Source of the DNA: Microbacterium saperdae
GTDB taxonomy: Bacteria > Actinomycetota > Actinomycetes > Actinomycetales > Microbacteriaceae
DNA length: 64,000 bases
Direction of reading: 5' to 3'
NCBI RefSeq assembly: GCF_006716345.1
Contig: NZ_VFOX01000001.1
Coordinates: forward strand, 2,604,001-2,668,000
The position numbers and the translations under genes were made by a program. The notes below the pieces were generated by a model. The model was not told the origin of the DNA. It did no database searches and saw nothing but the letters and a program-made list of their open reading frames with translations. Shown piece after piece: positions 11,984 through 22,132 of this stretch. Every line of letters starts with the position of its first letter. Positions within the stretch are counted from its first letter, which is position 1.

Positions 11984-13390
11984 TCAGTCCGTCTCGGAGA
12001 ACAGCCGACGGATGCGCGGGATCACGGTCGCGTAGGTCTGCGAGACATCCTCATACGCGCGGACCATGTCGGGATCCACGTCGACACGATCCCCGACGTG
12101 CACCATCGCGTCGACCGCGCCGTCCCACGTCGCGTGCATGCCGACGCCGACCGCGGCGCAGATCGCCGCTCCCATCCCGGCCGCGTCCCGCACCAGCGGA
12201 GTGCGCACCGGCACGCGGTACACCGAGGCGAGAATCTGCAGCATCAGCGAGGAGCTGCTTCCTCCGCCGGTGACCACGAGACCCCCGCGCCGCCTGCCGA
12301 GAACGCGGCGAGCGCGGTCGTCGCTGGAGGCGGTTTCGATCGCCAAGGCTTCGAGGATCGCCCGGTAGATGTGGAATGCCCCCTGCGTGCCGTCGAAGCC
12401 GACCAGAGCGCCCCGGCGCCACGGCTCATCGGGCGGGGCGAGCCAGTCCAGAGCCGCGACGATGCCGCGGGCACCGATCGGCACCTCCGCAGCACCGAGG
12501 TTCAACTCCTCCTCGGTCATCCCGTGCCCCGATGACGAGAGCAGCTCGCGGAACCAGCTGACCGTCCACATGCCCCGGCGCACACCATTGCTCTCGTAGA
12601 GGTATGTCCCCGGCTCCGCTCCGAAGTTCGTCCAGACGTCCGCATCCGGACCGAGCGGCCGATCCCCCACCGTCATGGTGGCCACATACGTACCCAGGGA
12701 CAGCAGCGCGTCGCCCTCCTCCCGGAGCCCCGCTCCGAGCGCCTCCACGGCCTTGTCGTTCGAGGTGGCGATCACGGGGATGCCTGCCGGGAGCCCGGTG
12801 CGGTGCGCCGCCGCTGCCGTCACTCGACCCAGCGGCTCCCCCGGCGCGACGAGCTCGAACAGCATCTGCGGATCCATGCCGGTCCGGGCATACTCGGCGG
12901 CATCCGCGCTCCACGTCCAGCGGGCGGTGTCGATCGGCCACATGCCCTGATAGTTGCCGGCCGCATCTCGGCGTTCCCCCGTGAGTCGGTGCCCGAGGTA
13001 GCCGGACGACGTCGTGACGTACACCGCATCGTCGCACTCGCGCTCATACGCGCGCGGCAGCCGCTCGTCCATCCAGCTCATGATGGGCTGCGCGAGGGAA
13101 CCGTCCTGCCGCAGCACCGCACGGCAGAACCGGATCGTGCACAGACCGACGCCGCGGATCTCCGTGGGATCGCCGTCGAAGGTGTCGAGGGCGTCGCGCA
13201 CCGCCGAGACGACCGAGTCCCAGAGGTCGTCGTCCGGGTGCTCCCAACGACCGGGCGAGGGGGACGCGTAGGGACGAAGGGGCACGCGCGCGCTGGCGTG
13301 CACGATGCCGCCGCCGTCGACGATCAGCACCTTGGTGCTCTGGGACCCGTTGTCGATGGCGACGACGTAGCCGCCCGCCCTCGTGGTCAC
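11984..13390 (-). CDS. FGGY-family carbohydrate kinase (xylulokinase-like), last gene of the Fae operon
   Basis: This 468-residue sugar kinase has the FGGY opening VVAIDNGSQSTK (phosphate-1 loop) and the ATP-site segments LLSLGTYVA and VVTGGGSSSSLMLQILASV in the C-terminal half. GSQ replaces the more common GTQ or GTT. FGGY enzymes phosphorylate a terminal hydroxyl of a sugar or polyol; the specificity here is unknown. The GTG at 13390 overlaps the oxidase stop by four bases (GTGA), so it is the tenth and last gene of the operon that begins at 22132. The context suggests it activates a polyol or ketose released during degradation of the imported compound. Confidence 0.85.
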   Translation of the reverse strand: MTTRAGGYVVAIDNGSQSTKVLIVDGGGIVHASARVPLRPYASPSPGRWEHPDDDLWDSVVSAVRDALDTFDGDPTEIRGVGLCTIRFCRAVLRQDGSLAQPIMSWMDERLPRAYERECDDAVYVTTSSGYLGHRLTGERRDAAGNYQGMWPIDTARWTWSADAAEYARTGMDPQMLFELVAPGEPLGRVTAAAAHRTGLPAGIPVIATSNDKAVEALGAGLREEGDALLSLGTYVATMTVGDRPLGPDADVWTNFGAEPGTYLYESNGVRRGMWTVSWFRELLSSSGHGMTEEELNLGAAEVPIGARGIVAALDWLAPPDEPWRRGALVGFDGTQGAFHIYRAILEALAIETASSDDRARRVLGRRRGGLVVTGGGSSSSLMLQILASVYRVPVRTPLVRDAAGMGAAICAAVGVGMHATWDGAVDAMVHVGDRVDVDPDMVRAYEDVSQTYATVIPRIRRLFSETD

Positions 13391-14871
13391 GCCCGTGACG
13401 CCGTCTCCGCCGCAGCCAGCGGGTAGATCGTTCCGCGGTTCATGATGCCGTGGGGATCGATGCCGTCCTTCAGGACCCGGAGCAGCTCGAACGCGCTGCC
13501 GTGCTCCTCGAGCGTCCATGGCGTGCGGTACTTCCCGATGCCGTGGTGGTGGACCATCGATCCGCCGAGACGCAGCGCCTCCTCGACCACGATCGCGTTG
13601 AGCGGTTCGTGATACTCGGTGATCTCGTCGCGCGGCTCGCAGGAGATGTCGTAGTCGTACACGAAGTACAGGTTGGTCCCGGTCTGGTAACTGTGCGAGG
13701 AGTGTGCGCCGAGCATCGTGAGGTCGGCCGCGTGCGGGAACTCCGTCCGCGCCCTCCGCATCACGGACTCGAAGAGCTCGGCGACGCCGGACCAGTCGAT
13801 GGAGACCTCGGTGGTGTAGCCCAGATGCGACTTCTCGAGCATCTCGCGCTTCTCGGCGTCGATCTTCTCCTGACCCCAGTTGAGGTTGTCGAACCAGTTC
13901 TCGATCAGCGCCGGATCGACCTTCTCGTGCGGGATGCCGGCGAAAATCGCCTCCACGCCCTCGGCGGTCGCATCCGCGATGCCCTTCGGGCCCTCCGCCA
14001 CCACGACCACGACCGCCTTGCCGTCGGCGAAGTGCGAGAAGTGCTGAGCCGCATCCTCTTCGGAGTACGCCCTGGCGACCGAGGGGTGGTAGCCGGCCAC
14101 GATGATCTCGCGCAGCCCCGCGACGCCCGCAGGGAGCGAGTCGACGAGGTACCCGAGGAAGCAGTTGTTCTCCGGCTGGTACCGGAACACCTTGACCGTG
14201 ACCTCGGTGATGACGCAGAGGGCGCCCTCGTTGCCGATCACGATGTGACGGATGTCGGGGCCGGCGGCGCGGCGGGGGACGTTCTTGATGCGCGTGACAC
14301 CTCCGCCCGGGAGCACCGCCTCGAGACCGACGACCATGTCCTCGATTCCGCCGTAGAGCGTGGAGAACTGGCCGATGGAACGCGTCGCGACCAGCCCGCC
14401 CATCTGCGCCAAAGGCTTGGACTGCGGGGAATGCCCGGTCGTCAGGCCCTGCGCCCGCAGAGTGTCCTCGAGCACCTGCAGGGGCACCCCGCACTGCGCG
14501 GTGACCATCATGTCGATCGGGTCGATCTCGAGGATCGCGTCCATGCGCGAGCCGTCGAGCACGATCGTGTCCTCGACGATGGACTCCAGTCCTCCCTCGG
14601 TCGCGGTCCTGCCCGTGCGGGGCACGATGTTGATCAGGTTCTCCTGGGCGAAGGAGAGGATCGCCGAGACGTCCTCCGTGGAGCGGGCATAGGCGATCGC
14701 CGCAGGGATCGGTCCGTCGAAGATCCCGTGGACCGACGTGTACTTCTTGAAGCGGTCGACGCTCGCCTCGCGCAGCTCCTGGGCGTCGGTGTCGACCTGA
14801 TCGACACCGATGAGATCGCGGAGCCGATCGACGATCTCCGCGCGGGTGAGGGCGGATCGTGATGCAACCAT
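13387..14871 (-). CDS. FAD-linked oxidase, alkylglycerone-phosphate-synthase-like (VAO/PCMH superfamily)
   Basis: This 494-residue cytoplasmic flavoprotein has an N-terminal FAD-binding PCMH domain (NIVPRTGRTATEGG, then GHSPQSKPLAQMGGLVATRS and GNEGALCVITEVTVKVF). The C-terminal cap ends with the HHHGIGKYR triad motif typical of alkyldihydroxyacetone-phosphate synthases and related oxidases, followed by HGIMNRGTIYPL. An ether-lipid role is unlikely in this operon. An alcohol or 2-hydroxyacid oxidase or dehydrogenase acting on the imported compound is more plausible. It sits between the SDR and the kinase genes and overlaps the latter. Confidence 0.85.
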   Translation of the reverse strand: MVASRSALTRAEIVDRLRDLIGVDQVDTDAQELREASVDRFKKYTSVHGIFDGPIPAAIAYARSTEDVSAILSFAQENLINIVPRTGRTATEGGLESIVEDTIVLDGSRMDAILEIDPIDMMVTAQCGVPLQVLEDTLRAQGLTTGHSPQSKPLAQMGGLVATRSIGQFSTLYGGIEDMVVGLEAVLPGGGVTRIKNVPRRAAGPDIRHIVIGNEGALCVITEVTVKVFRYQPENNCFLGYLVDSLPAGVAGLREIIVAGYHPSVARAYSEEDAAQHFSHFADGKAVVVVVAEGPKGIADATAEGVEAIFAGIPHEKVDPALIENWFDNLNWGQEKIDAEKREMLEKSHLGYTTEVSIDWSGVAELFESVMRRARTEFPHAADLTMLGAHSSHSYQTGTNLYFVYDYDISCEPRDEITEYHEPLNAIVVEEALRLGGSMVHHHGIGKYRTPWTLEEHGSAFELLRVLKDGIDPHGIMNRGTIYPLAAAETASRA

Positions 14872-21474: not shown

Positions 21475-22132
21475 GGAGACCCCTTGAGGTGGTGAGACGG
21501 GCGATGAGCACGAGGATGCCGTCGAGGACGAGCGCGAGGATGATCACGGCGACGGTGCCGGTGAGCGCGTAGTTGAGGGCGTTCTTGGAGCCCAGGGAAG
21601 ACAGCCCCTTGAAGATGTACTCGCCGAGTCCTGGGCCCGCGACGTAGGCGGCGATCGCCGCGATGCCGACCGTGAGCTGGGCGGCGACGCGGATGCCGGT
21701 CATGATCACCGGCCAGGCGATCGGCAGCTGCACGGTGAAGAGCACCCGCGCGGGGCCGAGGCCCATCCCGCGTGCGGATTCCAGGACCGAGACCGGCACC
21801 TCGCGGAGACCGACGACCGTGTTGCGTACGACAGGGAGCAGGGAGTAGAAGACGAGCGCGACCACGGTGGGCAGCCAGCCGAGACCGAGGATCGGGCTGA
21901 GCAGGGCGAGGAGCGCGAGCGACGGGATCGTGATCGCGACGGCGGCTGCGGTCAACACCGTCGTGCGGGCGATGCGTCGATTGCGGACGAGGATGCCCAG
22001 CCCGATCCCGATGGCCGAGGCCAGCGCGATGGAGATGAGCACGACGACGAGATGATCGCGGGTCAGCTCGAGGATGTCGTCTGCGCGACGTGTGAGGAAG
22101 GCCATGAGGTCTTCCCAGTTGAATCCGGTCAA
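21467..22132 (-). CDS. ABC transporter permease, osmoprotectant type, second permease; first gene of the Fae operon
   Basis: This 221-residue permease has about six membrane helices. IPSLALLALLSPILGLG and ESARGMGLGPARVLFTVQLP (coupling loop) mark the OpuCB/CD family. The TTG at 22132 has AGGAG (22138-22142 on plus) five bases upstream, so it is preferred to the later in-frame ATG. It heads the ten-gene unit that runs to 11984 and is divergent from the iclR-type gene, with a promoter at 22178-22205. Confidence 0.9.
   Translation of the reverse strand: MTGFNWEDLMAFLTRRADDILELTRDHLVVVLISIALASAIGIGLGILVRNRRIARTTVLTAAAVAITIPSLALLALLSPILGLGWLPTVVALVFYSLLPVVRNTVVGLREVPVSVLESARGMGLGPARVLFTVQLPIAWPVIMTGIRVAAQLTVGIAAIAAYVAGPGLGEYIFKGLSSLGSKNALNYALTGTVAVIILALVLDGILVLIARLTTSRGLRA

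Follow-up and report, generated by a model that had tools for sequence, protein, structure and literature searches.

A conserved actinobacterial operon combining an OpuC-type transporter, a Fae-like protein and an exchangeable enzyme module, and its possible role in the catabolism of glyceryl-linked betaines

Introduction

Several described systems come close to a ten-gene operon located in a 64,000-nucleotide stretch of the Microbacterium saperdae genome (assembly GCF_006716345.1, contig NZ_VFOX01000001.1, positions 2,604,001 to 2,668,000 of the forward strand; hereafter the window), which codes for an OpuC-type transporter, a homolog of the formaldehyde-activating enzyme Fae and five further enzymes. 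Fae-like proteins of groups 2–4 are described as having unknown function in the available passages of a study of methanotroph paralogues, which names actinomycetes among its Fae sequences (PMC11748545), and extra functions have been proposed for Fae homologs in an excerpt of another paper (PMC3728764). As for glycerol ethers, alkylglycerol monooxygenase (AGMO) is presented as the sole known alkylglycerol-cleaving enzyme in the available part of PMC7911779, and the enzymes breaking the ether bond of the betaine lipid diacylglyceryl-N,N,N-trimethylhomoserine (DGTS) are stated not to have been identified in passages of a 2023 review (PMC9892843). Homoserine betaine is reported as a free osmolyte in seawater (PMC13403184, excerpt). 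For the alkyl-dihydroxyacetone phosphate (DHAP) synthase AGPS from Dictyostelium, the review passages available describe a flavin-DHAP adduct and the importance of R352, Y508 and R447 in catalysis (PMC3509576).

The operon described here is real, widespread and catabolic, and no earlier description of it was found. The statement of an earlier note on this DNA that no known pathway has this gene set agrees with the literature searched, which was mostly non-subscription, subscription papers being largely outside the search. The same search found no paper naming both formaldehyde-activating enzyme and Microbacterium.

Results

Operon organization and conservation

All ten genes are located at the positions given in the earlier note, and both their place and their families were confirmed by profile searches and gene coordinates. 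They lie on the minus strand from 22132 to 11984 with intergenic gaps of −8 to +45 bp, and are transcribed in the order permease, ATPase, permease, substrate-binding protein (SBP), Fae-like protein, beta-hydroxyacid dehydrogenase of the 3-hydroxyisobutyrate dehydrogenase (HIBADH) family, aldehyde dehydrogenase (ALDH1), short-chain dehydrogenase (SDR), FAD enzyme and FGGY kinase. A divergent gene on the plus strand (22249..23109), absent from the gene list of the earlier note, codes for an IclR-family regulator (PF01614, 89.2 bits), which occupies the same place in related clusters.

Scanning of genome contigs with the Fae protein as the query resulted in 58 loci, and the genes neighboring Fae in the relatives were called with a codon-model caller. 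The context comparison covers 74 loci, namely these 58, 12 larger stretches, locus L151 and three short loci, with L053 and L069 being one region; a wider homolog search matched 4300 proteins, 120 of which were seen and none used for context. The exact window arrangement including the divergent regulator, that is, eleven genes in the same order, is present in 20 of the 58 loci (type A) from Microbacterium, Leucobacter, Salinibacterium, Lentzea, Umezawaea and Nocardioides, so the ten-gene order was found elsewhere with its regulator, and an arrangement retained in so many loci is not due to chance. Four more of the 58 are type A variants or incomplete copies: in L015 the transporter genes are on the opposite strand, L019 lacks the ALDH, in L037 the ALDH is displaced, and L027 is cut by contig ends.

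Type B comprises 14 of the 58 loci, 12 of which are complete while L002 and L050 are cut by contig ends. An enolase-superfamily dehydratase (MR), a second aldehyde dehydrogenase (ALDH2) and an Fe-type alcohol dehydrogenase (Fe-ADH) replace the SDR, FAD enzyme and kinase in the middle of the cluster, with the related regulator, the transporter and Fae retained, as well as HIBADH and ALDH1 where the contig extends that far. These module-swap counts rest on identity thresholds fixed by us. A tree built from 46 Fae proteins requires two changes of the A/B label (2–3 in bootstrap trees), one of which is forced by well-supported branches alone. The remaining 20 loci are L014, with the core and neither module nearby, L005, which is cut after Fae, and 18 loci with other contexts (L040–L049 and L051–L058).

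Module A

The FAD enzyme (13387..14871, minus strand) has alkyl-DHAP synthases as its best solved relatives (PDB 4bby, E 1.1e-44, as against 1.1e-27 for the best match among other proteins). AGPS residues Arg419, Tyr578 and His615–617 (numbering of the 4bby chain) are invariant in 26 of 26 FAD enzyme sequences and Ser527 is replaced by Thr in all 26, the corresponding window residues being R267, Y402, H441–443 and T353; this and all the residue counts below include the query sequence itself. With 494 aa the protein is shorter than the 4bby chain (658 aa). The catalytic residues R352, Y508 and R447 of the Dictyostelium enzyme would correspond to conserved residues of the FAD enzyme, the review passages naming only Arg and Tyr in Dictyostelium numbering. 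The two other genes code for a KduD-like SDR (14917..15693, minus strand; PF13561, 176.8 bits) and an FGGY kinase (11984..13390, minus strand; PF00370/PF02782) with Asp212 in 26 of 26 sequences.

The three genes also occur alone, as an SDR-kinase-FAD module with an FAD enzyme of 58% identity, in genomes G091 and G188 (L122, 6447–10123; L123, 6608–10328), neither of which is among the Fae-bearing genomes, and thus look like a discrete, separable module. Genome G188 also has a dehydratase elsewhere. In the class to which Caballeronia belongs, the FAD enzyme was matched in none of 274 genomes, in a search without a positive control. A ketone-forming, a phosphorylating and an AGPS-type reaction taken together point to a 1-O-substituted DHAP, and the alkyl-DHAP-synthase active site makes removal of a glycerol moiety a better reading of these genes than general processing of a carbon skeleton. 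The earlier note suggested that the kinase and dehydrogenases feed the skeleton into central metabolism; the SDR, kinase and FAD enzyme look like a glycerol-removing module instead.

Module B

Among 296 actinobacterial genomes, 36 dehydratase matches were obtained at E ≤ 1e-60, seven of them with at least 57% identity. Two of these seven lie beside Fae (G128, G280), and four follow an OpuC-type SBP together with ALDH2 and, if the contig extends that far, Fe-ADH, with no Fae seen (G259, G270, G076, G053). The remaining one, in G184 (L146), is accompanied by a DAO-GCV_T protein, a protein of the S-methyltransferase family and a Rieske oxygenase, the best curated match of which is GbcA (149 bits, below the cut-off of 670), again with no Fae seen; the last five genomes are outside the list of Fae-bearing genomes. 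Dehydratases with 42–46% identity also lie beside Fae in G111, G175, G042 and G208, and a 43%-identical one in G188 (L152) neighbors an MTTB-family methyltransferase and a DAO-GCV_T protein, with no Fae seen. Ten active-site positions, which we take to have the catalytic roles usual in the enolase superfamily, are retained in 27 of 27 dehydratases. The betaine-demethylase families located beside module B or its relatives (L146, L152) suggest that its chemistry belongs with N-methylated betaines.

Transporter and substrate-binding protein

The OpuC/ProX transporter set is complete and consists, on the minus strand, of two OpuC/ProW-type permeases (21467..22132, with a TTG start, PF00528, 78.7 bits; 19643..20440, PF00528, 90.3 bits), a ProV-type ATPase (20437..21474), slightly below the TIGR01186 cut-off (312.9 bits versus 326.6), and an OpuAC-family substrate-binding lipoprotein (18662..19603; PF04069, 197.5 bits), far below the OsmF cut-off (153.1 versus 400), whose PDB relatives are ProX, OpuBC, OpuCC and EgtUC. 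Residues K49, Y96, W97, Y99, W104, Y145, R184, Y213 and F228 of the SBP, which on the basis of the alignment are presumably the counterpart of the ProX cage, are shared by all 43 of the 43 SBPs that are 45% or more identical, the window's own and those of L148–L150 among them; the latter loci are Fae-less clusters of OpuC and module B. Given these nine invariant positions, the imported solute is probably common to type A, type B and the Fae-less clusters. The OpuAC family and the invariant Lys, Arg and aromatic positions support a betaine or quaternary-ammonium-like compound as the predicted solute, in line with the import type proposed in the earlier note.

HIBADH, ALDH1 and possible sources of formaldehyde

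The HIBADH-family enzyme (17191..18132, minus strand; PF03446/PF14833) has Lys184 and Asn188 in 44 of 44 sequences and scores under the equivalog cut-off for 3-hydroxyisobutyrate dehydrogenase (TIGR01692, 186.9 versus 291.6 bits). ALDH1 (15722..17194, minus strand) resembles succinate-semialdehyde dehydrogenase (SSADH), being under its curated cut-off (TIGR01780, 541.9 versus 646.35 bits). In 43 of 43 sequences it retains R168, R287, S450, C293 and E259, which we take to be the carboxylate-binding residues of SSADH and the catalytic Cys and Glu.

An oxidation step releasing formaldehyde, also proposed in the earlier note, is not borne out within the operon, since no demethylase family was found among the ten genes. 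Genome-wide, PF00848 Rieske oxygenases gave no match, and PF01571 (GCV_T) gave two, a strong one taken as GcvT and a weak one; the glycine betaine demethylation set, consisting of a GbcA-type Rieske protein and a DMGO/SoxA-type GCV_T oxidase, is thus not found in this genome. Mycothiol is an unlikely formaldehyde acceptor, with the best MshC match scoring 263 bits where the cut-off is 485.1 and having two stop codons inside it, which is probably a cysteinyl-tRNA synthetase; the MshC model had matches in 14 of 14 control genomes and exceeded its cut-off in one of the 14.

About 40 kb away from the operon, at 62513–63962 on the minus strand, the window codes for a Rieske-domain protein (400 aa, PF00355, no PF00848) and a small 2Fe-2S ferredoxin. 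Genes for an amidohydrolase, a TPP enzyme, an ALDH and a dipeptide-type ABC transporter, the latter probable from its sequence starts (50114–55455), also lie in this neighborhood, which is perhaps another catabolic cluster.

The Fae-like protein

The Fae-like protein (18138..18662, minus strand) is full-length (174 aa) and passes both family cut-offs (TIGR03126, 158.5 bits versus 118.05; PF08714, 177 versus 27). Compared with Fae it carries AHIN in place of AHID. In the 75 window-type rows, obtained from 87 non-reference rows by removing 12 short duplicates, with the window included, L001 left out and a few near-copies still present (L053/L069, L044/L045), His22, Lys71 and Gln88 are retained in all 75, the Asp24 position is Asn in 74 and Thr in one, and Thr73 is kept in only 14. 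The numbering and roles of His22, Asp24, Leu53, Lys71, Thr73 and Gln88 are those we assume for Fae, with His, Lys and Gln taken as active-site residues in agreement with database annotation and Asp24 presumably being a substrate contact.

Profile searches of the window's genome, which is listed as 100% complete, gave no match for Mch and none for ribofuranosylaminobenzene 5'-phosphate (RFAP) synthase; the expectation of the earlier note that tetrahydromethanopterin (H4MPT) is foreign to this host thus holds for these two, mtdB and fhc not having been searched. Among 396 actinobacterial genomes, Fae (PF08714) was matched in 17 and Mch (PF02289) in one, which is not among the 17. A re-check of 17 genomes for Mch gave three positives, two Caballeronia and one Burkholderia, each of which has a Fae gene some 2 kb away from mch as well as a window-type copy at another location. 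The mch-linked copies have AHID and 72% identity to the Methylorubrum extorquens Fae, and the window-type copies of the same genomes have AHIN and 30–31% identity. In a Fae tree leaving out L001 and L007, the mch-linked sequences are separate from the window type, with the meeting of long branches flagged. Dyella (L051) has a window-type Fae and no Mch match. Taken together, the sequences indicate that the window-type Fae is not part of a recognizable H4MPT pathway. A third, very divergent Fae on a long branch was noticed in one of the three Mch-positive genomes, a Caballeronia (L099, G398).

Elsewhere, window-type Fae genes are found with GabT, ALDH1 and a ureohydrolase (L077, L151), with an aldo-keto reductase and ALDH1 (L046, L047, L049, L051), with HIBADH alone (L041, L043, L044, L045), and with two Zn-dependent alcohol dehydrogenases (Zn-ADH), a dehydratase and a dipeptide-type ABC transporter (L083, L085, L086). 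SoxA/SoxB and a GFA-family protein lie within about 6 kb of Fae in L048, a Rieske oxygenase (GbcA as the best curated match, 133 bits against a cut-off of 670) lies within the same distance in L040, where alcohol dehydrogenases are also nearby, and a formate-dehydrogenase-like protein adjoins Fae in L084; L079 has none of the marked partner genes beside Fae. In those of the 74 compared loci that have ALDH1, Fae is clustered with an enzyme able to make an aldehyde, which fits formaldehyde trapping and action on the aldehyde itself alike.

The Fae-like genes of L151, L078 and L077 lie in clusters of the GABA/guanidino type with a permease, a ureohydrolase, an SSADH-like ALDH and a class III aminotransferase. 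HalD-like genes (related to family PF23169) neighbor Fae in L042, L053, L054, L055, L058, L067, L069, L070, L080, L081, L082 and L087, the records of some of which are labeled Acidimicrobiales or acIV; in L053 the Fae-like gene is also near genes for malate dehydrogenase and methylenetetrahydrofolate reductase.

Flanking regions

A short palindrome, CCGGTACCGG, lies at 22158–22167 between the regulator gene and the operon and is a possible operator, or may be due to chance. On the other side, genes which are probably involved in riboflavin synthesis, judging from the sequence start (8171–11563, plus strand), end beside the 3' end of the operon, with a gene for a small protein in between (11616–11969).

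Discussion

A common transporter combined with two replaceable modules suggests a betaine bearing a glycerol group, and both modules make sense as putative glycerol cutters of such a compound, giving DHAP or pyruvate. We therefore propose, tentatively and with appreciable doubt, that this is an IclR-controlled operon for the catabolism of an imported betaine with a glyceryl group, R-O-CH2-CHOH-CH2OH, the best candidate substrate being the deacylated head group of DGTS, glyceryl-N,N,N-trimethylhomoserine. After import by the OpuC-type ABC transporter, the SDR would oxidize C2 of the glycerol to a ketone, giving an O-alkyl-dihydroxyacetone, the FGGY kinase would phosphorylate it to an O-alkyl-DHAP analog, and the AGPS-like flavoenzyme, working in the lytic direction via a flavin-DHAP adduct, would release DHAP and R-OH. 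In type B, Fe-ADH, ALDH2 and the enolase-superfamily enzyme would take over these three steps, the latter eliminating R-OH from a 3-O-substituted glycerate to leave pyruvate. R-OH, a hydroxy acid, would be oxidized to a semialdehyde by the HIBADH-family enzyme and further to a dicarboxylate by the SSADH-like ALDH, and N,N,N-trimethylhomoserine is a suitable R-OH because it suits a hydroxyacid dehydrogenase and an ALDH with carboxylate-binding residues.

At the aldehyde step, the Fae-like protein may work independently of H4MPT and either transfer formaldehyde to another acceptor or perform C–N chemistry such as loss of trimethylamine. We make no choice between formaldehyde trapping and amine loss: searches of the operon and genome revealed no clear source of formaldehyde, but the Rieske-domain protein and ferredoxin are encoded in the window. 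A more specific version, with two interchangeable actinobacterial enzyme sets for breaking the DGTS ether, namely a reverse AGPS and an ether eliminase, and Fae as a cofactor-free amine lyase, seems rather unlikely as a whole; in it Fae would expel trimethylamine (or ammonia) from 4-oxo-2-ammoniobutanoate, the product of the dehydrogenase, and fumaric semialdehyde would be passed to the ALDH.

Several observations weigh against the proposed glyceryl betaine pathway. The OpuC, Fae, HIBADH and ALDH1 core of L014 has neither module near, and L056 and L057 have only OpuC, a Zn-ADH, Fae and ALDH1, which may point to another substrate or to the free betaine. Fae also lies without a glycerol module beside a HalD-like oxygenase in 12 of the 74 loci and beside a GntP permease in Caballeronia, and module B is also found without OpuC, namely with an MFS transporter in L076 and with GABA-type genes in L078 and L151. 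Three more distant SBPs (39–41% identity) deviate at W97, W104 or Y145. Among the families seen (for the ALDH and SDR, the best 25), no curated NCBIfam cut-off is reached by the HIBADH, ALDH, SDR, FAD enzyme or kinase, family profile searches detected no lipase, demethylase or trimethylamine gene in the operon, and AGPS is described only as ether-forming in the passages of PMC3509576.

Membership of the Fae family, with His22, Lys71 and Gln88 in all 75 rows, speaks for another explanation, which follows the earlier note. Here the imported compound is a methylated amine that undergoes demethylation, the Fae-like protein transfers the formaldehyde to some other acceptor, tetrahydrofolate being the simplest, and the remaining enzymes process the skeleton. 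Relatives near SoxA/SoxB with GFA (L048), Rieske (L040) and formate-dehydrogenase-like (L084) proteins, as well as the Rieske-domain protein and ferredoxin 40 kb off, also favor it. We nevertheless consider it unlikely: no demethylase family was found in the operon, the genome has no PF00848 and only one GcvT-like and one weak GCV_T match, the fullest betaine-demethylase loci (L146, L152) show no Fae, and the AGPS-like enzyme, kinase and SDR are left unexplained, so that the glyceryl betaine pathway accounts for more of the operon genes. As to the canonical H4MPT-linked oxidation of formaldehyde, the score over the Fae family cut-off favors it, and we reject it as hardly credible given the Asn in place of Asp24 and a genome listed as complete with no Mch or RFAP synthase.

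Two further explanations assume other substrates. If the operon acted on 2,3-dihydroxypropyl-trimethylammonium or another glyceryl amine of this type, the modules would cleave a C–N bond and not an ether, expelling trimethylamine or another amine and giving DHAP or pyruvate. Quaternary amines are good leaving groups, OpuC transporters fit, and amine elimination has a precedent in the enolase superfamily in methylaspartate ammonia-lyase; this is improbable all the same, as the conserved HIBADH and SSADH-like ALDH would be left without a substrate and family profile searches revealed no trimethylamine-handling family in the operon. We find it slightly less likely still that a C4 polyol or aldonate is degraded, with a tetrulose phosphate in type A and 4-hydroxy-2-oxobutanoate in type B being split into a C3 compound and formaldehyde and the Fae-like protein performing or following the split. 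An SDR and an FGGY kinase are a usual polyol pair, the type B dehydratase resembles sugar-acid dehydratases, the family searches made on cluster genes turned up no keto-acid aldolase, and GntP lies beside Fae in Caballeronia. However, an OpuAC-type SBP with invariant Lys, Arg and aromatic residues does not point to a neutral polyol, module B has betaine-demethylase families beside it, and the AGPS active site has no explanation here.

The cluster is common to many soil and water actinobacteria and looks built for a small charged nutrient, perhaps a lipid head group. If the glyceryl betaine pathway is true, it would provide a way, in soil and freshwater, to recycle the carbon and nitrogen of phosphorus-free membrane lipids, and the locus offers two concrete candidate routes for cleavage of the DGTS ether. 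It also places the Fae-like proteins in a defined operon, together with partner enzymes and in organisms that have no recognizable H4MPT pathway.

Comparison with known systems

The Fae of M. extorquens (PDB 1y5y/1y60) belongs to the same family over its full length (E 3.6e-28) and has His22, Lys71 and Gln88 in common with the window-type protein, which differs by Asn for Asp24, a Thr73 that is mostly not conserved and its location in a betaine-type catabolic operon. Like groups 2–4 in the available passages of PMC11748545, the window protein is Fae-like and not of the mch-linked type. Glycine betaine catabolism by GbcA, DMGO and Sox proteins has OpuC-type import in common with the operon, and families of this kind are linked to certain module B relatives, whereas the window operon has HIBADH, ALDH, SDR, FAD enzyme and kinase instead. 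AGMO also cleaves glycerol ethers but is a tetrahydrobiopterin-dependent oxygenase according to the part of PMC7911779 available, and family profile searches found no oxygenase family among the ten genes. AGPS (ADPS) has the same Arg, Tyr and three His residues as the FAD enzyme, whose keto-phosphate substrate would be made by the neighboring kinase and SDR; the differences are the shorter length of the FAD enzyme, its catabolic context and the lytic direction proposed for it.

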